This document shows, piece after piece, positions 56,756-64,000 of a stretch of DNA of 64,000 nucleotides. The stretch spans positions 682,001-746,000 of the forward strand of contig NZ_JAALJI010000001.1 in assembly GCF_011064595.1 (NCBI RefSeq), in the 5' to 3' direction. The notes below the pieces were generated by a model. The model ran no database searches. It was given only the letters and a program-made list of their open reading frames with translations, and was not told the DNA's origin. Source of the stretch: Paludisphaera soli. Its GTDB lineage: Bacteria > Planctomycetota > Planctomycetia > Isosphaerales > Isosphaeraceae. Every line of letters starts with the position of its first letter. The stretch's first letter is position 1. The position numbers were made by a program, and so were the translations under genes.

Positions 56756-56776
56756 GCCGCCCGCGGCGTCGGCTCA
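56753..56776. terminator. Small bidirectional hairpin spanning both stop codons
   Basis: TGAGCCG (56753-56759) and CGGCTCA (56770-56776) are inverted repeats that include the stop codons of the two convergent genes. The 7-base-pair stem encloses a 10-base loop. It could act as a compact terminator, though the stem is short. Confidence 0.3.
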
Positions 56777-57085
56777 CTCCTCGACGCGGGCGTGCCGCAC
56801 CTTGTGAGTCTCCAGCCAGACCAGGAGCGAATCCTGCTCCTCGGTGAGCTCGACCTCGGTCGCCTTCTCGGTGTCGAGCGGCGAGACGAGGTAGAAGACG
56901 CCCTCCATCACCCACTTGGTGACCTCATCGCGATCGAACCAGTACTCGCCCTCGCCCAGGTGCGCCGGATGCTCGGGAGCGTCCGGCCCCGACTGGAAAT
57001 AGACGAGTTGCGAGCGGAGCCGGGGCGACAACGGATACGGGGGCAGGTCGGGGTGGTCCAGGGCGACCAGTCGAGGTTGGGCCAT
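56774..57085 (-). CDS. Hypothetical small protein
   Basis: A 103-residue, acidic, soluble protein. It shows alternating short hydrophobic segments, for example LRSQLVYFQSGPDAPEHPAH near 23-42 and YWFDRDEVTKWVMEGVFYLV near 48-67, with no family motif that I recognise. ATG 57085 is the obvious start. It converges on the DUF1501 gene, sharing a hairpin with it, and lies 130 bases downstream of the kinase-like gene start region on the same strand. Probably a real gene because of its strong amino-acid composition and position, but function is unknown. Confidence 0.55.
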   Translation of the reverse strand: MAQPRLVALDHPDLPPYPLSPRLRSQLVYFQSGPDAPEHPAHLGEGEYWFDRDEVTKWVMEGVFYLVSPLDTEKATEVELTEEQDSLLVWLETHKVRHARVEE

Positions 57086-57215: not shown

Positions 57216-57851
57216 TCACGCTTCGAGAGTGCGGATCGGCCGGTCCGGCTCGCGAAAGGCGACGACTTCCACCCGGCCCAGCCGCGACGAAGCCTCGGGG
57301 AAGACCGGATCGACCAGGTCGACCTCGGCCGCCTCGCGGCGCGTCGAAGCGACGGGCGAGGCGCTCTTGAGCAGGATCAGTCGGTCGGCCCCCAATCGAT
57401 CGGCGATCCGGGCGGCGATCGAGTCGGACGTCGTCCGCCAGGAGACCGGCAAGGGGGAGTCCCCCGCCTCGTCGACCTCCTCCATGTATCGTCGCACGGC
57501 GAGAACCGGCCGCCTGCCCGCCTTCCAGGCCCCGGGGAGTTCCCCCAGGGAGCGGACCAAAAGTCCCCCGGAAAGCCCGCCCGCGAGGAGTTCGGCCGTG
57601 AGGTCCATCGCGCCGAGGGCCAGGCGGTGGGCCCTCTTAGCGCTGAGGCCGTGGACCTCGTCGAGCGCCCGAATCGCGTCGGCGACGGGACCGCCTCCGA
57701 CGATGAGGACGACTCGCGGTTTCGGCCCCCCTTCCCTCGCGACTTCGGAGTCCAGGAACTTCTCCAGCCGCACCGTCAGCTTCGGCCAGTCGAGCAGGCT
57801 TCCCCCGACCTTCACGACGAGGAGGGGCCGACCCTCAAGCTTCGACGCCAT
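57216..57851 (-). CDS. Amino-acid-kinase-fold protein, MfnE-like
   Basis: A 211-residue protein of the aspartate/glutamate/uridylate kinase superfamily. ATP-binding glycines are in VVKVGGSLLDW near 12-22 and LIVGGGPVADAIR near 49-61, with the late nucleotide region IADRLGADRLILLKSASPV near 148-166. In methanogens a member of this superfamily, MfnE, phosphorylates the aminomethyl-furan phosphate used to make methanofuran. The neighbours here (MfnF-like, MfnD-like, Mch) make the same assignment likely. The start at 57851 overlaps the end of the MfnF-like gene by 17 bases, which supports translational coupling. Another small-molecule kinase is the main alternative. Confidence 0.7.
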   Translation of the reverse strand: MASKLEGRPLLVVKVGGSLLDWPKLTVRLEKFLDSEVAREGGPKPRVVLIVGGGPVADAIRALDEVHGLSAKRAHRLALGAMDLTAELLAGGLSGGLLVRSLGELPGAWKAGRRPVLAVRRYMEEVDEAGDSPLPVSWRTTSDSIAARIADRLGADRLILLKSASPVASTRREAAEVDLVDPVFPEASSRLGRVEVVAFREPDRPIRTLEA

Positions 57852-58872
57852 GGCCGGGCCCCCTTCCCGTCACCAGTTCGATCAACGCGTGCGCGCACGC
57901 GGCGACGGAGCCGCCCGCGCCCCAGAGCCCGCCGAGCGGACGGATCGAGCCGCCGGGCGCCACGACCGCCTCGGCCACGCGACGGGCCAGGAACTCGCCC
58001 GATCCCGACACGACGGCCACTTCCGGCCGACCGATGGTCGCCGCGCAGGCCCGCCCCGCCGCCGCGACGAGCCGTTCGCTCAAGGCCTCGTCGGCGGCCC
58101 GCGCCAGGGCCTCCACCTCGTCAGGGGTGCACGACTCGCGATCGGCGCAGACCATCCGAGCCAGGCGTTCCCGGGCCCGTTCGAGGGTGGCGGGACGCCC
58201 ATCAGCCGTCGAGCGGTCGTCGGCGTCGGGGGGCAGGTCGCCGAGCGTGATATAGACGTCCCGCGTCGTGGCGAAGAACTCGGCCGCCAGGCCCGTCGGC
58301 TCGCCCCGGAACGGCAGCGCGACCGCGAGCGAGCAGACGGGCGTCCTGGCGACGCCGGCGTAAACCAGCTCGGCGTTCTGAAGGCGATCCAGGTCCGTCC
58401 GACCGCGCGCCGCGACGCGGCCGCCCACCAGTGGGATCAGGTCGGTCGTCGTCGTGCCGACGTCGATCAGGAGGCCTCGCGCGTCCCCCACCGATCGGGC
58501 CGCGACGGTCGCGAGGGCCAGCCAGTTCGAAGCCGCGGCGACGAGCGGTCGGCCTCGGATCGAGGCCTCGTCATGGAACCGCCCGTCGGTCCCCCAGAAG
58601 GCGACCGGCCGGCCCGGCAGGGCCTCGGAGAGCGCGGCGACGACCCGGAGCACGCCCTCGCGTTTGGTCTCGAAGCAGTCGCAAAGCTCGGCGGTCATGG
58701 TCGCCGCCACGCGATCGAACGGCGGGAACGACGACGCCAGTTCGGCGATCGCCCCGGCCAGCCGCTCGGGTTGCTTCCAGACCGGGTATGGCGACGATCG
58801 CGCGGAACCGTCCGAATGGGCCGCCTTCAGGTTCGCCCCGCCGACGTCGATCGCGAGCCAGGTGGTCTTCAT
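57835..58872 (-). CDS. H4MPT-linked C1-transfer protein, MfnF-like (hydantoinase-A/ASKHA fold)
   Basis: A 345-residue protein of the family annotated as probable H4MPT-linked C1-transfer pathway protein. It has an ASKHA-like phosphate-binding start AIDVGGANLKAAHSDG near 7-22, a second phosphate loop LLIDVGTTTTDLIPLV near 134-149, and a final SGSGEFLARRVAEAV near 292-306. Methanogen homologues (MfnF) join the aminomethyl-furan diphosphate to glutamyl-tyramine in methanofuran synthesis. The ATG at 58872 overlaps the stop of the MfnD-like gene by four bases (ATGA), and its own stop overlaps the MfnE-like start. The three genes thus form one coupled operon. A few Cys residues (DCFETK) are not in a cluster. 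Confidence 0.8.
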   Translation of the reverse strand: MKTTWLAIDVGGANLKAAHSDGSARSSPYPVWKQPERLAGAIAELASSFPPFDRVAATMTAELCDCFETKREGVLRVVAALSEALPGRPVAFWGTDGRFHDEASIRGRPLVAAASNWLALATVAARSVGDARGLLIDVGTTTTDLIPLVGGRVAARGRTDLDRLQNAELVYAGVARTPVCSLAVALPFRGEPTGLAAEFFATTRDVYITLGDLPPDADDRSTADGRPATLERARERLARMVCADRESCTPDEVEALARAADEALSERLVAAAGRACAATIGRPEVAVVSGSGEFLARRVAEAVVAPGGSIRPLGGLWGAGGSVAACAHALIELVTGRGPGHGVEA

Positions 58873-59951
58873 GACCGGACCGCCTCCACCGATTCGCCGA
58901 CCGCCCAGGTTCGACCGGACGCGTCGAAACCGACGGCGGCGGCCGCGTCGATCTCGACCTCGATCCGATCCATCAGCCGATCCCACTCCTCGGGCTCGGG
59001 GGCCAACCAGGCTTCGGCGATCAGGCCCGGGGATAAGACCCGACCCAGGCCGACGCAGGACGTCGTCGGCCTCGGGTTGATCTCCAGGACGACCACCCGC
59101 CCGTGCTCGACGTCCAGGATGAAATCGACGCCGACGAGCCCGCGAAGGCCCGCGATCGACTCCACGGCCGCCTTCGCGATCGGAACGGCCTCGGGATATC
59201 GCCGTGGCAGGGTGCCACCCTCGTATGAGAATCGACCGTCGCGGAGCGCGATCCGCTGCTCGCCGACAGCGATCAACCGGGCCCGGCCCCCGCGAACGAG
59301 GAACGTCGCGCTCATCGCGACGCCGGGGACGAATTCCTGGAGCAGGCGAGGCCCCCCCGCCCCCGCAAGCTCCGCCGACTCGTCCGGCCGGTCGACGCGA
59401 TAAGTTTCCAGGCTCCCCGCGCCGTCGATCGGCTTGACCACCGAAGGGAACGGCCAACCGTCGGGCACCGCCCACCCGACTTCCAGGATCGCGGAGCGAG
59501 GCGTCGGAACCACTTGACGGTCCAGCCATTCTCCGAGGGCGGCCTTGTCGCCGGTGAGTGCGACCGCCTCGGGTTCGGAGCCCAGCAACGGGCAGCCCGT
59601 CCGGCCGAGGCGACGGGTCAGGGATTCCAGCACCCCGCCCGTCTCGGGAGCGATCAAGAGCGTATAATCAGCCCGAACGGCGAGAGCCTCCAGCCGTTCG
59701 AGCGAATCGACCTCGACGCTCTCCCAGGGCTTGTCGTCGCGGGGCAGGCGTGGGTCGATGGTGACCAGGACGCGGGTCGGCGTGGCGGCTGCGGCGAATT
59801 CCGAGGCGAGCGCCCGGCGCATCGCGGCGCCTTCGCTGGCCCAGGATTGCGGCAGGGTCTCGCCGGCCATCCCGCCGCCGGTGACGAACTCGTGGATCAG
59901 GACGGTGCGGGGGACGGGCGAGGTCGTCGTGGGGTCGATGTTCCAGCTCAT
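58869..59951 (-). CDS. ATP-grasp ligase, MfnD-like
   Basis: A 360-residue ATP-grasp protein. The N-terminal pre-grasp fold starts RTVLIHEFVTGGGMAG near 15-30. ATP and metal contacts are seen in FPSVVKPIDGAGS near 171-183, the Leu-Gln-Glu segment RLLQEFVPGVAMS near 205-217, and LVGVDFILDVEHG with VVVLEINPRPTTS near 276-305. In methanogens the MfnD ligase adds glutamate to tyramine. The bacterial homologue may ligate glutamate to a tyrosine-type unit. ATG 59951 gives a normal N-terminus, but its first 14 bases overlap the start of the divergent HisA-like gene. A longer start at 60032 would run through that gene. The protein is most likely part of a methanofuran-type pathway. Confidence 0.72.
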   Translation of the reverse strand: MSWNIDPTTTSPVPRTVLIHEFVTGGGMAGETLPQSWASEGAAMRRALASEFAAAATPTRVLVTIDPRLPRDDKPWESVEVDSLERLEALAVRADYTLLIAPETGGVLESLTRRLGRTGCPLLGSEPEAVALTGDKAALGEWLDRQVVPTPRSAILEVGWAVPDGWPFPSVVKPIDGAGSLETYRVDRPDESAELAGAGGPRLLQEFVPGVAMSATFLVRGGRARLIAVGEQRIALRDGRFSYEGGTLPRRYPEAVPIAKAAVESIAGLRGLVGVDFILDVEHGRVVVLEINPRPTTSCVGLGRVLSPGLIAEAWLAPEPEEWDRLMDRIEVEIDAAAAVGFDASGRTWAVGESVEAVRS

Positions 59952-60690
59952 TCCGGTGCTCGACGTCCTGGGCGGTCGGGCCGTGCATGCGATCGGCGGC
60001 GACCGCGCGCGGTATCGGCCGTTGCGGAGCATCTTACACGCCGACCCCGCCCCCCGGGAACTGGCGCGGTCCTTTCGCGAGGCACTCGGCCTGAACGCGG
60101 TCTACCTGGCCGACCTCGACGCGATCACGGTACGCCGGGGCGATCTCGCGCTCTACCGAGAGGTGGCGGGCCTGGAGATGGATCTCTGGCTCGACGCGGG
60201 GCTTCACGATGAGCGCGATCTCGACGGGTTGCTGCCGATCGAGCGCCTTCACGTCGTCGCCGGCCTGGAGTCGCTGCACGGGCCGGACGCCCTCGCCCGG
60301 ACGCTGGCCGTCGCCGGCCCCGAACGACTGATCGTCAGCCTTGACCTTCGCGACGGCCGCCCGATCACGCCGACCGCCGACGCCTGGCCCGAGTCGGACG
60401 CGATCGCCCTGGGGCGTCGGATCCTCGGCATAGGCGTCCGTCGGCTCATCCTCCTCGACCTGAGCCGCGTCGGGCGAGGCTCGGGGACGGGCACGGCGGG
60501 GCTGCTCGACGCCCTGCTCGCGACGCATCCCGACTCCGAGATCGCGGTCGGCGGCGGCATCTCCACGATCGAGGACGTCGAGCGATGCCGAGATTGCGGC
60601 GCGTCGGCCGTGCTCGTCGGCTCGGCGCTCCACGACGGCCGCATCGGCCGATCGGGCCTGGAGCGGCTCGGCCTCGTTTCAGAGGGTTAG
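59938..60690 (+). CDS. HisA-like TIM-barrel protein of C1-cofactor clusters
   Basis: A 250-residue TIM barrel related to phosphoribosyl-formimino isomerase HisA. The first strand LIPVLDVLGGRAVHAIGGDR near 4-23 and AVYLADLDAI near 55-64 carry the two typical Asp positions. The C-terminal phosphate-binding motifs are IAVGGGISTIEDVERC near 202-217 and SAVLVGSALHDGRIG near 222-236. A HisA-like protein of this kind is found in H4MPT/methanofuran gene clusters of methylotrophs, without a proven reaction. True HisA cannot be excluded, although the his genes are 56 kb away. The start ATG 59938 overlaps the divergent MfnD-like start by 14 bases, and the 3' end overlaps the convergent PTPS-like gene by 12 bases. 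Confidence 0.72.
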   Translation: MFQLIPVLDVLGGRAVHAIGGDRARYRPLRSILHADPAPRELARSFREALGLNAVYLADLDAITVRRGDLALYREVAGLEMDLWLDAGLHDERDLDGLLPIERLHVVAGLESLHGPDALARTLAVAGPERLIVSLDLRDGRPITPTADAWPESDAIALGRRILGIGVRRLILLDLSRVGRGSGTGTAGLLDALLATHPDSEIAVGGGISTIEDVERCRDCGASAVLVGSALHDGRIGRSGLERLGLVSEG

Positions 60691-61170
60691 CTCGATCTCG
60701 GCCGACTGGCCGAAGCATTCCTCGACCTCGACGCGGACCGCTCGGGGGTCGGCCCACTCTTTGCCTCGCATTGCCTGGAGGAGGCGGCCGGCGATGTATT
60801 CGGCGAGGCGTTCGGCCGTCGTGTTGTCGATCGGCAGGATGACGCACTCGTCGGTGGGGAAGCTCCAGAATCGGTCGCCGAAGCGGGCCACCGTGTTGGG
60901 GCCGACGGCCTCGACGGCGATGAGCGGGCTCCGATCGGGCAGGAGCATGCGGTGGTCGAGTTCGTCCACGATCGCACGGGTCATGTCCCGGAGGGCGATG
61001 AAATCGACCACGTAGGCGTTGGGGTCGAGCTCGCCGTCGACCTCCACGGCGACTCGGTAGTTGTGGCCGTGGATGCGCTCGCAATGGTCGCCGTCGAAGG
61101 TGATGAAGTGCCCCGACGAGAAGACCAGGTAATCCTTGGTGACGCGGACCTTGAATCGCGAGGCGGGCAC
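60679..61170 (-). CDS. 6-pyruvoyl-tetrahydropterin synthase / QueD-like protein
   Basis: A 163-residue tunnelling-fold protein. Zinc ligands are H21 in FSSGHFITF and H34 and H36 in RIHGHNY, and the catalytic Cys is C30 (HCERIHGH). The late FGQSAEIEL segment contains the Glu that anchors the pterin ring in this family. In H4MPT clusters such proteins may act in pterin synthesis; in other genomes they make queuosine precursors. Its place beside mch, an MptN-like ligase and a CitG-like protein favours the pterin role. ATG 61170 is a natural start. It is 29 bases after the CitG-like gene on the same strand and overlaps the HisA-like gene tail-to-tail by 12 bases. Confidence 0.78.
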   Translation of the reverse strand: MPASRFKVRVTKDYLVFSSGHFITFDGDHCERIHGHNYRVAVEVDGELDPNAYVVDFIALRDMTRAIVDELDHRMLLPDRSPLIAVEAVGPNTVARFGDRFWSFPTDECVILPIDNTTAERLAEYIAGRLLQAMRGKEWADPRAVRVEVEECFGQSAEIELTL

Positions 61171-61199
61171 GGTGGGCGTTCCTCGGAGACGGGAGAGGT

Positions 61200-62081
61200 T
61201 CAGAACGCGAGTCCGCCCGACCAGGACGAAGGCCCGGCCGGGCGAGGCAGCTCGATTGTCCCTTCGCGGAGCGCGGCGAACAAGACCGCCGCGACCAGGT
61301 CCGCCGTCGTCCCGGGATTCCGAAGGTTCCGATCCGCCCGCATCCAGAGGTCCAGGTCGCGAAGGCTCGCGACCCCGTCGGCTGCGTCGGGCCAGCCGGC
61401 GTCGAGCACGAGGCGGGCGCGTCGCGACGCCTCGCGGGCCGTCGCCTGGTCGGTCTTCCTTGCGATCAGCGAATCGGGGTGGCTCGCAAGCAGTTCGAGC
61501 GCGACTCCGACGATCGCTACCTCCAGCGGCCGGCCCGCGCCCAGGCGGCGCCCGAGGGCGGGCAGGCCCTCACCGAGCACCTGACGGAAATCTTCGGCGT
61601 ACTGGAGGGCGATCAGGTCGCGGTCGGCGGCCAGGATCATCGCGTCGCGGAGGGTGATCGTCGGCTCGTCGGCCACGTCCTGCTCCCGGGCGCGTCCCAG
61701 GCCGCCGGGGTTCGCCAGGCGGATCGCCCGATAGACGAGCCGAGCGTCCTCGACGGTCGTCGACGCCAGCACGCGCGGCAGGCCGTCTTCAAGAGACGTC
61801 GAGCGAAGGACGGCGGCCATCGGGGCGAGGAGGAGGACGATCCCCAGGTTGGCGTTGGTCGCGACGACGCTCCGGGTCGCCTCGGTCGCCGCCAAGACGG
61901 CCGCGCCCACGCCCTCCGCCGCGCGATCGAGCGGGTCGGCTACGGCCGCCGCGGCGAGCAGGAAGTCGAGATAATCCAGGTCCGAGAAGTCGGCGAACCT
62001 GTGGACGTTCCCCGGCTTCCGGGCGGTTGCTTCCATCAGGCAGGCGACCTGCGCGAGCTTGCCGACCGAGAGCTCGTTCAC
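61200..62081 (-). CDS. CitG/MdcB-like triphosphoribosyl-dephospho-CoA synthase family protein
   Basis: A 293-residue helical protein of the triphosphoribosyl-dephospho-CoA synthase family. Landmarks: CLMEATARKPGNVHRFADF near 14-32, with the ARKPGNVH motif, then NANLGIVLLLAPMAAVL near 76-92 and LRNPGTTADLVAAVLFAALR with the C-terminal RNPGT motif. Related proteins in H4MPT gene clusters are thought to transfer a phosphoribosyl-type group in cofactor synthesis, by analogy with methanopterin, which contains a ribose phosphate; this is inference. GTG 62081 overlaps the TGA of the upstream ligase by four bases (GTGA), so the two are coupled. Confidence 0.8.
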   Translation of the reverse strand: MNELSVGKLAQVACLMEATARKPGNVHRFADFSDLDYLDFLLAAAAVADPLDRAAEGVGAAVLAATEATRSVVATNANLGIVLLLAPMAAVLRSTSLEDGLPRVLASTTVEDARLVYRAIRLANPGGLGRAREQDVADEPTITLRDAMILAADRDLIALQYAEDFRQVLGEGLPALGRRLGAGRPLEVAIVGVALELLASHPDSLIARKTDQATAREASRRARLVLDAGWPDAADGVASLRDLDLWMRADRNLRNPGTTADLVAAVLFAALREGTIELPRPAGPSSWSGGLAF

Positions 62082-62965
62082 CGCACGGCCTCCCGGAATG
62101 AATCCAGGAGCGCCGCGGCCACGTCGACGCCCGTCGCCTGGGTCAGGGCCCGCCAGCCGGGCACGGCGTTGACCTCGATCAGGACGCGACGGCCCTGGTC
62201 CAGGTCCTCGATCAGGTCCACGCCGGCGAACACGGCCCCGACGGCCTCGGCGGCGGCGACGGCCAGGCGTTCGGCCTCGGCGTCCGGAGTCCAGGCCTCG
62301 GCCCGCCCGCCGATCGCGATGTTGGTCCGCCACTCGCCCCCCTGGGCGGTCCGCCGCATCGCACCCAGGACGCGACCCCCGAGGACGAAAAGCCGCAGGT
62401 CGTGGCCGGGGTGGCGGATCCAGCGCTGGAGATAAATCACCGAGCCCAGGCGTTCCAGGGCGTGGAAGCATCGCCAGGCCAACTCGCGATGCCCGACGCG
62501 CATCAGCCCCCGCCCTTCCGAGCCGAAGAGCGGCTTGACCACCACGTCACCTCCCAACTCGTCGAACGCCGCCATCGCCGAGGCCGCCGTCTGCCCGACC
62601 CAGGTCGGGGGGATCGGCAGCCCCCGACGTTCCACGAGGCTCAGCGTGAGGTACTTGTCGACCGAGGCCTCCACCGCCCGGGGAGGGTTCCAGATCGGCA
62701 CCCCGAGCGATTCCAGCCGATGGAGCGCGTCCATGCGGAAGACCACCGGCTCCAGCCCCCCCGGCGGCATCATCCGCACCAGGACGCCGTCGAGGCCGTC
62801 GAGCGCCACGCCGTCAGCCGACACGCGACCCGATCCGGATCCGATCGACGCCTCGACCTCGCCGAACGGCAGGACGTGCAGCACGACGTCCAGGGTGCCC
62901 GCCGCGCGCAACAGGTCCTGGACGTGCCATCCCGTACCGGAGACCAAGGCGGCGAAGGTCGTCAT
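62078..62965 (-). CDS. RimK/MptN-like ATP-grasp ligase
   Basis: A 295-residue ATP-grasp ligase of the RimK family. Nucleotide-binding residues are in GGDVVVKPLFGSEGRGLMRV near 138-157, QRWIRHPGHDLRLFVLGG near 180-197, and the metal-binding VLIEVNAVPGWRALT near 263-277. Archaeal MptN attaches glutamate to tetrahydromethanopterin (making sarcinapterin), and homologues occur in H4MPT clusters of methylotrophs. A glutamyl ligase acting on the pterin or methanofuran is the best guess. ATG 62965 lies 10 bases after the mch stop, and the stop overlaps the CitG-like start. It is thus the second gene in the mch operon. Confidence 0.78.
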   Translation of the reverse strand: MTTFAALVSGTGWHVQDLLRAAGTLDVVLHVLPFGEVEASIGSGSGRVSADGVALDGLDGVLVRMMPPGGLEPVVFRMDALHRLESLGVPIWNPPRAVEASVDKYLTLSLVERRGLPIPPTWVGQTAASAMAAFDELGGDVVVKPLFGSEGRGLMRVGHRELAWRCFHALERLGSVIYLQRWIRHPGHDLRLFVLGGRVLGAMRRTAQGGEWRTNIAIGGRAEAWTPDAEAERLAVAAAEAVGAVFAGVDLIEDLDQGRRVLIEVNAVPGWRALTQATGVDVAAALLDSFREAVR

Positions 62966-62975
62966 GGCGCGGCGA

Positions 62976-63926
62976 TCAATCCCAGAAGGACCGTGCGACG
63001 ATCTCGGGCTTGGGGGAGCCGAAGGCGTGGGAGCGGCCGGTGTCGAGGTTCTGGAAGACGACCTCGGCGGGGCTGAAGAGGTGGGGGTCGACGGCGTAGA
63101 AGTCGTTGTTGTAGCGGGCGAAGATCGCGGCGAAGGGCTCGCCGAAGTCGTGCGAGGCCGACGAGGGGACGCGCGGGCCGACCTCCCGGAGCGATTCGTC
63201 GTCGCCAGTGACGTGGAGGATCACCCGGGCGCCGTAGAGGATGGCGTCGTTCGTGCGGCCGATGGCGGCGAGGTCGTCGCGGGCGATCGGCGGCAGCGGC
63301 GCGGCCCCCTGACCGGACACGACCCGTCCGAGGTCGAACTTCAGCTCGGCCAGCTTGTGGAGCGCGGTCTCGACCGAGCGGGCGACGATCTGGACGCCGC
63401 CGGCCAGGCTCGCCGTGGGGGCGGCGAGCAGGGTGACGTTCCACGGCTCGACGCCGCACTCCTCGGCGATCCGGGCCACGATCTGGGGCGTGGGCGCCTT
63501 GCGGGTCTCCAGCACGCCGATCACCGACTCCGACTCCTCGCGGAAGCCGATGGCGTCGAAGACCGCTTCCTTGCCCCGCACGGCCCGCATCGGGCCGGAG
63601 CCCATCGCGAAGAACTTCCCCTCCGAGAGCGCCCAGCCGGCGTACTGGCTGGCCAGGCACGCCCGCACCGGGTGATCGGACCAGACCTGGACGAGCGGGA
63701 CCGCGCGGCCGACGAGCTCGCCCATCGGCAGCGACACCTCGGCCAGACCGCCGAGGCAGACCCGCGCCAGGTCGAGCCCCGCCTGGAGCCCGCCCCGGGC
63801 CTTGATCCCGCAGTCGAGGAACAGGCCGCCGCCGTCGATCTCGTGGCGGGCGATCCGGCGTTCTTGGGCTCCGGCGGTCATCGTCTCGACGATCTGGGCG
63901 GCGCGGGCGTTGAGGGTCGAAGTCAT
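62976..63926 (-). CDS. mch: Methenyltetrahydromethanopterin cyclohydrolase
   Basis: A 316-residue enzyme that hydrolyses methenyl-H4MPT to formyl-H4MPT, the third step of H4MPT-linked formaldehyde oxidation. The length fits the family. Landmarks are LNARAAQIVETMTAGAQERR near 5-24, the Gly-rich segment MGSGPMRAVRGKEAVFDAIG near 133-152, and YGARVILHVTGDDESL near 231-246. The protein is cytoplasmic and binds the cofactor without metal. ATG 63926 is preceded by GGGGGAGGCC-like sequence on this strand. It is first in an operon with MptN-like, CitG-like and PTPS-like genes, and is itself preceded by another gene on the same strand that ends 13 bases earlier. Confidence 0.92.
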   Translation of the reverse strand: MTSTLNARAAQIVETMTAGAQERRIARHEIDGGGLFLDCGIKARGGLQAGLDLARVCLGGLAEVSLPMGELVGRAVPLVQVWSDHPVRACLASQYAGWALSEGKFFAMGSGPMRAVRGKEAVFDAIGFREESESVIGVLETRKAPTPQIVARIAEECGVEPWNVTLLAAPTASLAGGVQIVARSVETALHKLAELKFDLGRVVSGQGAAPLPPIARDDLAAIGRTNDAILYGARVILHVTGDDESLREVGPRVPSSASHDFGEPFAAIFARYNNDFYAVDPHLFSPAEVVFQNLDTGRSHAFGSPKPEIVARSFWD

Positions 63927-63939
63927 GGCGGGGGAGGCC

Positions 63940-64000
63940 TCAGGAGGGCGAAACCACCTTCAGGACCGGGCGGGCCGGCGCGGCCAGGATCTCCCCCTGC
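63940..64000 (-). CDS. C-terminal fragment of a gene just upstream of mch
   Basis: The last 20 codons, reading about QGEILAAPARPVLKVVSPS and stop, lie on the minus strand and end 13 bases before the mch start. The gap and strand suggest a further member of the same C1 operon. The fragment is too short to identify; a formyltransferase or dehydrogenase subunit would be typical but cannot be claimed. Confidence 0.45.
   Translation of the reverse strand, partial: QGEILAAPARPVLKVVSPS

Follow-up and report, generated by a model that had tools for sequence, protein, structure and literature searches.

Methylotrophic proteobacteria carry an 'archaeal-like' one-carbon (C1) gene cluster in which Orf21, Orf9, OrfY, Orf5 and Orf17, together with orf1 as a relative of MfnD, have been tied to methylofuran (MYFR), a coenzyme that carries one-carbon units, according to excerpts of PMC8141765. 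The same excerpts pair the methylotroph names as Orf22/MfnB, Orf21/MfnE, Orf9/MfnF, Orf1/MfnD, OrfY/MyfA, and Orf5/MyfB. The archaeal route to methanofuran is given in part of PMC11365854. For Planctomycetes, an excerpt of PMC5020050 mentions mfnD/orf1 and cites 2004 and 2013 reports of tetrahydromethanopterin (H4MPT) and methanofuran genes, and planctomycete C1 genes are discussed in a portion of PMC3505017. Here, we analyze 64,000 nucleotides of Paludisphaera soli (the window, G000:C1:682001-746000), taken from an assembly of 7.97 Mb that is 99.97% complete. Eight complete open genes lie across positions 57216-63926 of the window, and we read them as the methylofuran biosynthesis part of a bacterial 'archaeal-like' H4MPT/MYFR C1 cluster, a reading to which we give a probability of roughly 0.88. 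The cluster is genuine and well conserved, earlier work explains most of it, and the outline of its interpretation is already in print.

A predicted methylofuran locus in Paludisphaera soli

A first-pass annotation of this DNA had named eight genes here and proposed that they serve a methanofuran-type formyl carrier together with H4MPT genes. Family matches recover all eight, intact and at or near the positions first assigned. The proposed carrier, itself already published, is well supported by those matches, by synteny, by co-occurrence with Mch and MfnB, and by the MyfA, Fae, and FhcABCD genes of the same genome. The genes, with the start of the adjoining fhc operon, are as follows.

57216-57851, minus strand: MfnE-like protein (Orf21) of amino-acid-kinase fold, predicted F1-P kinase (NF040622 MfnE 2.2e-12, under cut-off; PF00696; profile to 7qrh 1.2e-19).
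57835-58872, minus strand: MfnF-like ASKHA enzyme (Orf9), predicted to couple F1-PP with glutamyl-tyramine or glutamyl-tyrosine (TIGR03123 287.8 bits; NF040623 MfnF 175.5 bits; profile to 3c0b 2e-74).
58869-59951, minus strand: MfnD-like ATP-grasp protein (Orf1), predicted tyramine/tyrosine-glutamate ligase (MfnD_Meth 4.8e-21, under cut-off; MfnD-type group 99/95); the ATG at 59951 is the likeliest start.
59938-60690, plus strand: Orf17, a HisA-like TIM barrel divergent from mfnD (TIGR00734 4.5e-31; Orf17 group 100/100 apart from HisA; model pLDDT 92.7).
60679-61170, minus strand: PTPS (COG0720) with the motif CERIHGH, a predicted FolB bypass for the pterin (PF01242, sequence motif).
61200-62081, minus strand: CitG-like protein of the H4MPT island, GTG start (PF01874 7.2e-64; 39% to the Aquabacterium cluster protein).
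62078-62965, minus strand: RimK-type ATP-grasp ligase, predicted MyfB for polyglutamate elongation (MptN_Meth 238 bits; rimK_fam 186 bits; 37% to the Aquabacterium RimK adjoining mch).
62976-63926, minus strand: Mch, methenyl-H4MPT cyclohydrolase (TIGR03120 390.8 bits, over cut-off).
63940-64000, minus strand: 3' end of fhcC, a gene reaching window-equivalent position 64794 (L001:7940-8794; TIGR03122, over cut-off).

The reactions proposed for these proteins are deduced from genes, gene order, families, groupings, and co-occurrence. MfnB would condense two glyceraldehyde-3-phosphates (GA3P) into the furan phosphate 4-HFC-P, which would be aminated to F1-P and then phosphorylated by MfnE to F1-PP. 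MfnD would join glutamate to tyramine or tyrosine, and MfnF would join the two halves. MyfA and the RimK-type MyfB would then lengthen the glutamate chain. The finished carrier would be used by FhcABCD for C1 transfer, alongside Fae, Mch, and H4MPT; PTPS probably supplies the pterin of H4MPT. A Methylorubrum deletion mutant suggests, by analogy, that Orf17 is likely required at an early furan-side step.

Co-occurrence across planctomycete genomes

We searched 195 planctomycete genomes with completeness of at least 90. MfnF is found in 33 of them (E <=2.2e-69), and Mch in the identical 33; a weak MfnF match in G093 (21.6 bits) was left out as a probable paralogue. MfnB occurs in the same 33 genomes and in two more, G046 and G175, where MfnB-family genes over the Pfam cut-off (G046:C19:10845-11531 and G175:C6:99613-100269) stand in genomes with no MfnF, Mch, or Fae match. 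These two may reflect another use of the furan phosphate, or a relic. A MyfA profile gave a match of at least 91 bits in 26 of the 27 MfnF-positive genomes searched, and the remaining one, G160, has weak pieces beside fae.

The gene set of P. soli is divided between the window, the DNA just past its end, and a second contig. Beyond the window and on the same strand follow fhcC (206.7 bits), a gene for an SPFH/Band 7 protein, fhcD (424.3 bits), fhcA (662.7 bits), and fhcB, which at 309.8 bits just misses its cut-off of 327.8. MfnB is encoded at C35:143595-144248 (PF04476 3.4e-47, over cut-off) and a MyfA-type protein at C35:115472-116560 (210.8 bits). One of the two Fae copies of the genome, C35:114243-114716, lies about 0.8 kb from MyfA. 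No F420-type Mtd was found in the source genome. This lays out the methylofuran gene set of one planctomycete as operon members and genes elsewhere.

The dispersal of MfnB, MyfA, and Fae is what might be expected of a decayed or unused cluster. However, none of the eight frames is interrupted and there are overlaps among them, the MfnF of the window agrees at every column that is invariant among 12 aligned sequences, and MfnF is kept together with Mch in 33 genomes; decay or disuse is thus highly improbable. The overlaps also bear out an earlier description of mfnD, mfnF, and mfnE as a coupled trio, as the mfnD stop and the mfnF start share one ATGA and mfnF overlaps mfnE by 17 nucleotides. 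The 5' ends of orf17 and mfnD, at their likely starts, overlap head to head by 14 nucleotides (59938-59951), which leaves no intergenic promoter space between the divergent genes, provided that the starts are correct.

Two neighbouring features are also noted. The SPFH/Band 7 gene lies inside the fhc operon, flanked by fhcD and fhcC (L001:8798-9814, window-equivalent 64798-65814), and the same is seen in locus L123 of a relative. Directly downstream of mfnE is a minus-strand open frame of 103 amino acids, 56774-57085, with no Pfam or NCBIfam match.

Identity of the MfnD-, MfnE- and MfnF-like proteins

The ASKHA protein passes the cut-off of TIGR03123 (244.1 bits), a family titled 'probable H4MPT-linked C1 transfer pathway protein', and its next-best match is MfnF, under the cut-off of 520 for the archaeal equivalog NF040623. 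A profile of 12 planctomycete MfnF sequences leads to one solved sequence, 3c0b/3cet, whose title is 'conserved archaeal protein'. The top NCBIfam match of the kinase is MfnE (47.1 bits, cut-off 300). That of the ATP-grasp protein is MfnD_Meth, NF040722 (75.4 bits, cut-off 400), and the MfnD family profile reaches the solved chain 3df7 at 2.1e-36. Since all three lie under the archaeal equivalog cut-offs, we file them as relatives of bacterial Orf21, Orf9, and Orf1 and not as the archaeal enzymes. The Orf21-like label of the kinase rests on position and best match, that of the ASKHA protein on TIGR03123, and the Orf1/MfnD-type label of the ATP-grasp protein on group support.

Both MfnD and MyfA, the ligase for the second glutamate, are ATP-grasp proteins with the Pfam domain ATP-grasp_3. 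Because the window protein can be aligned with either type, the question arises whether it is MyfA. In a tree of 25 proteins it falls among the MfnD-type proteins (99/95), and the MyfA-type proteins, including the genome's own copy on C35, make up the other side (100/99). The MfnD_Meth model gives 38.6-67.8 bits for three MfnD-type plasmid proteins, in the same direction as the window protein, whereas five MyfA-type proteins, that of the source genome included, reach 24.1 bits at most and only two of the five have any match at 1e-3. The plasmid records label both ligases just 'ATP-grasp'; we took the MfnF-adjoining ones as MfnD type and the mch-side ones as MyfA type, so that the Orf1/OrfY assignment of plasmid genes is drawn from scores and gene order and the MyfA reference set does not consist of characterised sequences. 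We give the MyfA identity next to no weight, and on this sequence evidence the window ATP-grasp protein is of the MfnD type.

The first-pass annotation had asked whether the three proteins cluster with the Mfn families. For the ATP-grasp protein the tree places it with the MfnD/Orf1 type; the kinase and the ASKHA protein are placed by family models and profiles, and the scores of all three are below the archaeal cut-offs. Support for consecutive steps comes from a relative, Planctomycetales bacterium 71-10, in which a single open frame of 719 amino acids (L123, 8822-11020) spans a fused MfnD and MfnF, with both Pfam domain sets and no N in the DNA; its MfnF is 66% identical to that of the window.

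Gene order in other bacteria

Proteobacterial clusters were taken from plasmid records, five of 35 matching records being opened; one of these, L206, is unannotated and was not used. In Thiodictyon and Azospirillum plasmids, mch-RimK-CitG-fae is followed by a HisA-like gene that diverges from ATP-grasp-MfnF. In Aquabacterium, a HisA-like/ATP-grasp/MfnF/kinase block and mch-RimK-CitG stand apart from each other, and a Phyllobacterium plasmid shows the same order minus the MfnD-type gene. The recurrence of this arrangement in proteobacterial plasmids and in other planctomycete loci argues that it is not due to chance.

A contig scan gave 80 MfnF loci from records titled planctomycetes or just 'bacterium', with no methylotroph among them. 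Neighbours were detected by blast at 1e-5 with few references, and the counts are therefore lower bounds: MfnD adjoins MfnF in at least 45 of the 75 loci that had enough sequence, MfnE adjoins it in at least 45 of 69, and the fetched stretches include an Orf17 in at least 11 of 68.

Two gene fusions were seen alongside. In L220:9354-10928 and L221:3644-5194, matches to DUF447 and RFAP synthase share one open frame (Pfam confirmed on L220 only), which ties DUF447 to H4MPT synthesis. On the Phyllobacterium plasmid, L207:18235-19431 encodes MfnB fused to dihydroneopterin aldolase (FolB).

Mch, the RimK-type ligase, PTPS and the CitG-like protein

Mch is far over its cut-off of 228.8 bits. The RimK-type ligase had been called 'MptN-like', and its best curated match is indeed MptN_Meth, at 238.4 bits, followed by rimK_fam at 186.3 bits (cut-off 143.4). 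A true MptN would add glutamate to H4MPT and so give a sarcinapterin-like cofactor. However, the MptN_Meth match is under the cut-off of 350, and the mch-adjoining RimK proteins of Aquabacterium and Azospirillum also have MptN_Meth as best match (178.8 and 209.8 bits), so that the match does not single out MptN. Methylorubrum Orf5 is 33% identical to MptN and has been demonstrated to be MyfB (excerpts of PMC8141765). From this precedent and the mch neighbourhood, the ligase is more likely MyfB (Orf5), and a true MptN is unlikely.

PTPS matches PF01242 at 81.2 bits, and its motif fits CExxHGH. This pattern marks a hybrid PTPS-I/III that can serve folate and queuosine pathways, and in some archaea PTPS-III members serve H4MPT, as described in parts of PMC5041015. 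In P. soli it probably supplies the pterin of H4MPT. The CitG-like protein (PF01874 216.6 bits) has counterparts in 4/4 annotated plasmid islands opened, and is a putative member of the H4MPT island.

Points against the reading, and the tyrosine or tyramine core

Several observations weigh against a methylofuran locus. The sub-cut-off scores of the MfnD-, MfnE-, and MfnF-like proteins leave their exact substrates unsettled. MfnD, MfnF, and MfnE stand side by side in just 30 of 65 testable loci; often the three genes are separated, or one of them is too diverged for the threshold used. MfnC is unidentified even in M. extorquens, to go by excerpts of PMC8141765. PF00282 has no match in the source genome, which indicates that there is no MfnA-type decarboxylase, although an MfnD-type gene is present.

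TIGR03812, the archaeal tyrosine decarboxylase family, is over its cut-off in none of the 27 MfnF-positive genomes searched, several of which have weaker relatives. Excerpts of PMC8141765 describe three tyramine-type strains without recognisable MfnA and a tyrosine-glutamate ligase without a known gene, and list 213.09 and 230.12 m/z for the core fragments of tyramine-type MYFR. P. soli may either make tyramine by another enzyme or have an MfnD that takes tyrosine. A genome with MfnD and without MfnA offers a direct test of tyrosine versus tyramine use.

The first-pass annotation had further suggested that the planctomycete cofactor may be a new variant. The sequence evidence shows neither different chemistry nor a new cofactor variant, and leaves room for the latter. 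What is new is modest: an MfnD in a genome lacking PF00282, Orf17 in 31 of 33 MfnF-positive genomes, active-site changes in 47/47 Orf17 proteins, and the MfnD-MfnF fusion in one relative.

Orf17: identity and distribution

The gene divergent from mfnD had been described as encoding a HisA-like protein. The fold is HisA-like, but the protein is Orf17, a label given by position and by a tree in which Orf17 proteins group apart from HisA. It scores 108.4 bits with TIGR00734 (hisAF_rel), under the cut-off of 179.85, and 285.8 bits with an Orf17 profile. TIGR00734 also matches HisA: 114 of the 195 genomes have a match and none passes the cut-off, so only matches of at least 89 bits were counted as Orf17. 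Such matches occur in 29/33 MfnF-positive genomes and 0/162 others. The top match in an MfnF-negative genome, 87.5 bits in G053, is in the HisA group by tree. The Orf17 profile adds G164 (229 bits) and G184 (201 bits), which gives the 31 genomes mentioned above.

The two others, G122 and G160, have no recognisable Orf17, with HisA-level scores of 90.5 and 77.5 bits by the Orf17 profile. For three further MfnF loci, L177, L202, and L195, the genome scores do not exceed 98.8 bits, and for L200 the score is just 29 bits; these absences are less sure, as the completeness of the four genomes is not stated. The best matches of G122, G160, L177, L202, and L195 fall with HisA in the tree. G122 is otherwise well equipped, with MfnB, MfnD, MfnE, MfnF, MyfB, FhcC, FhcD, Mch, a MyfA-type gene, and Fae. 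A gene needed in Methylorubrum is thus, as far as sequence can tell, not recognisable in some otherwise equipped planctomycete lineages, and these lineages are natural contrasts for finding the role of Orf17.

Deletion of orf17 in Methylorubrum extorquens PA1 abolishes methylofuran, complementation restores it, and methenyl-dH4MPT is still made (excerpts of PMC8141765). The same excerpts assign no reaction to Orf17, and in the parts of the methanofuran and methylofuran literature available nothing else apparently bears on its function. An older suggestion for MJ0703, cited there, would place Orf17 in H4MPT synthesis, and H4MPT genes do adjoin orf17 in the window. The Methylorubrum mutant speaks against this, as do G122 and G160, which have Mch without a recognisable Orf17. 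We regard a role in H4MPT synthesis as improbable and favour one in methylofuran synthesis.

A class-IV aminotransferase of the ilvE type was considered as a pyridoxal phosphate (PLP) enzyme replacing Orf17 and was dropped, an ilvE relative being present in 100/101 genomes of G122's class. In the Orf17-less loci L177, L202, and L209, ilvE, truD, and mfnB stand in a row on one strand. Among 30 ilvE loci examined, truD adjoins in four, those of G122 and of its family members G142, G082, and G147. Because these last three have no MfnF match, the adjacency reflects family synteny and is no evidence for a replacement of Orf17.

Orf17: active site and structure

In HisA, loops hold both phosphate groups of the substrate. 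We aligned 47 distinct Orf17 proteins (a second copy of the window gene was left out) with four HisA proteins. Like HisA/PriA (ProFAR isomerase), Orf17 has the fold and the Asp residues of strands 1 and 5, both invariant (47/47). It differs in lacking the Asp of the xDG motif, which is Val or Ile in 47/47, the HisA Thr, which is Leu, Met, or Ile, and the GGGxR loop, which becomes Asp-x-Gly with its first Gly replaced by Asp in 47/47. The strand-7 loop glycines are kept in 46/47. An Arg, two Tyr, and a Glu are invariant in Orf17 and absent from the four HisA proteins. We take the xDG Asp to be D176 of S. enterica; catalytic residues are numbered as in T. maritima and S. enterica. Titles of PDB entries name variants at D7 (D7N), D176 (D176A), D11 (D11N), and D127. 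From the alignment and these titles, the reading that both catalytic Asp residues of HisA are kept in Orf17 was rejected, as the xDG Asp is lost.

An AlphaFold2 model of Orf17 (pTM 0.91) is nearest to PriA/HisA (4u28, Z 28.4, rmsd 2.1 over 228 residues; 3zs4, E 2.3e-16), with HisF close behind. A sequence search found no solved Orf17, its top match being a HisA, 4gj1, at 98 bits. The loss of one phosphate loop suggests a barrel re-tooled for a one-phosphate substrate, which would fit 4-HFC-P, F1-P, or GA3P. It is conceivable, if doubtful, that Orf17 performs the MfnC amination or an MfnB-tied step, acting on a furan with a single phosphate through an acid-base site derived from HisA and without PLP, and that lineages lacking Orf17 use another enzyme. 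In the same doubtful reading, the MfnD-type ligase, in a genome with no MfnA-type decarboxylase, would accept tyrosine itself, which would make it the missing tyrosine-glutamate ligase.

Comparison with known systems

With the archaeal MfnA-MfnF system of Methanocaldococcus jannaschii, the planctomycete set shares homologues of MfnB, MfnD, MfnE, and MfnF, the last nearest to 3c0b. It differs in its scores under the equivalog cut-offs, in having no MfnA, and in its bacterial-type ligases MyfA and MyfB. The 'archaeal-like' C1 cluster of methylotrophic proteobacteria, as described in excerpts of PMC8141765, has the same gene families, the linkage to fhc and mch, and Orf17, whereas in the planctomycete MfnB, MyfA, and Fae are on another contig. 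P. soli also has an MfnD-type gene, which M. extorquens does not, according to those excerpts. Compared with the Thiodictyon, Azospirillum, and Phyllobacterium plasmid clusters, PTPS sits where they carry fae. The one island of Aquabacterium olei pTB101 (L204) differs in holding fae, pabB, mtdB, DUF447, DUF6513, a second ATP-grasp gene, and MfnB as well, but like the window it has a HisA-like gene divergent from ATP-grasp-MfnF-kinase, with genes touching or overlapping, and an mch-RimK-CitG block.

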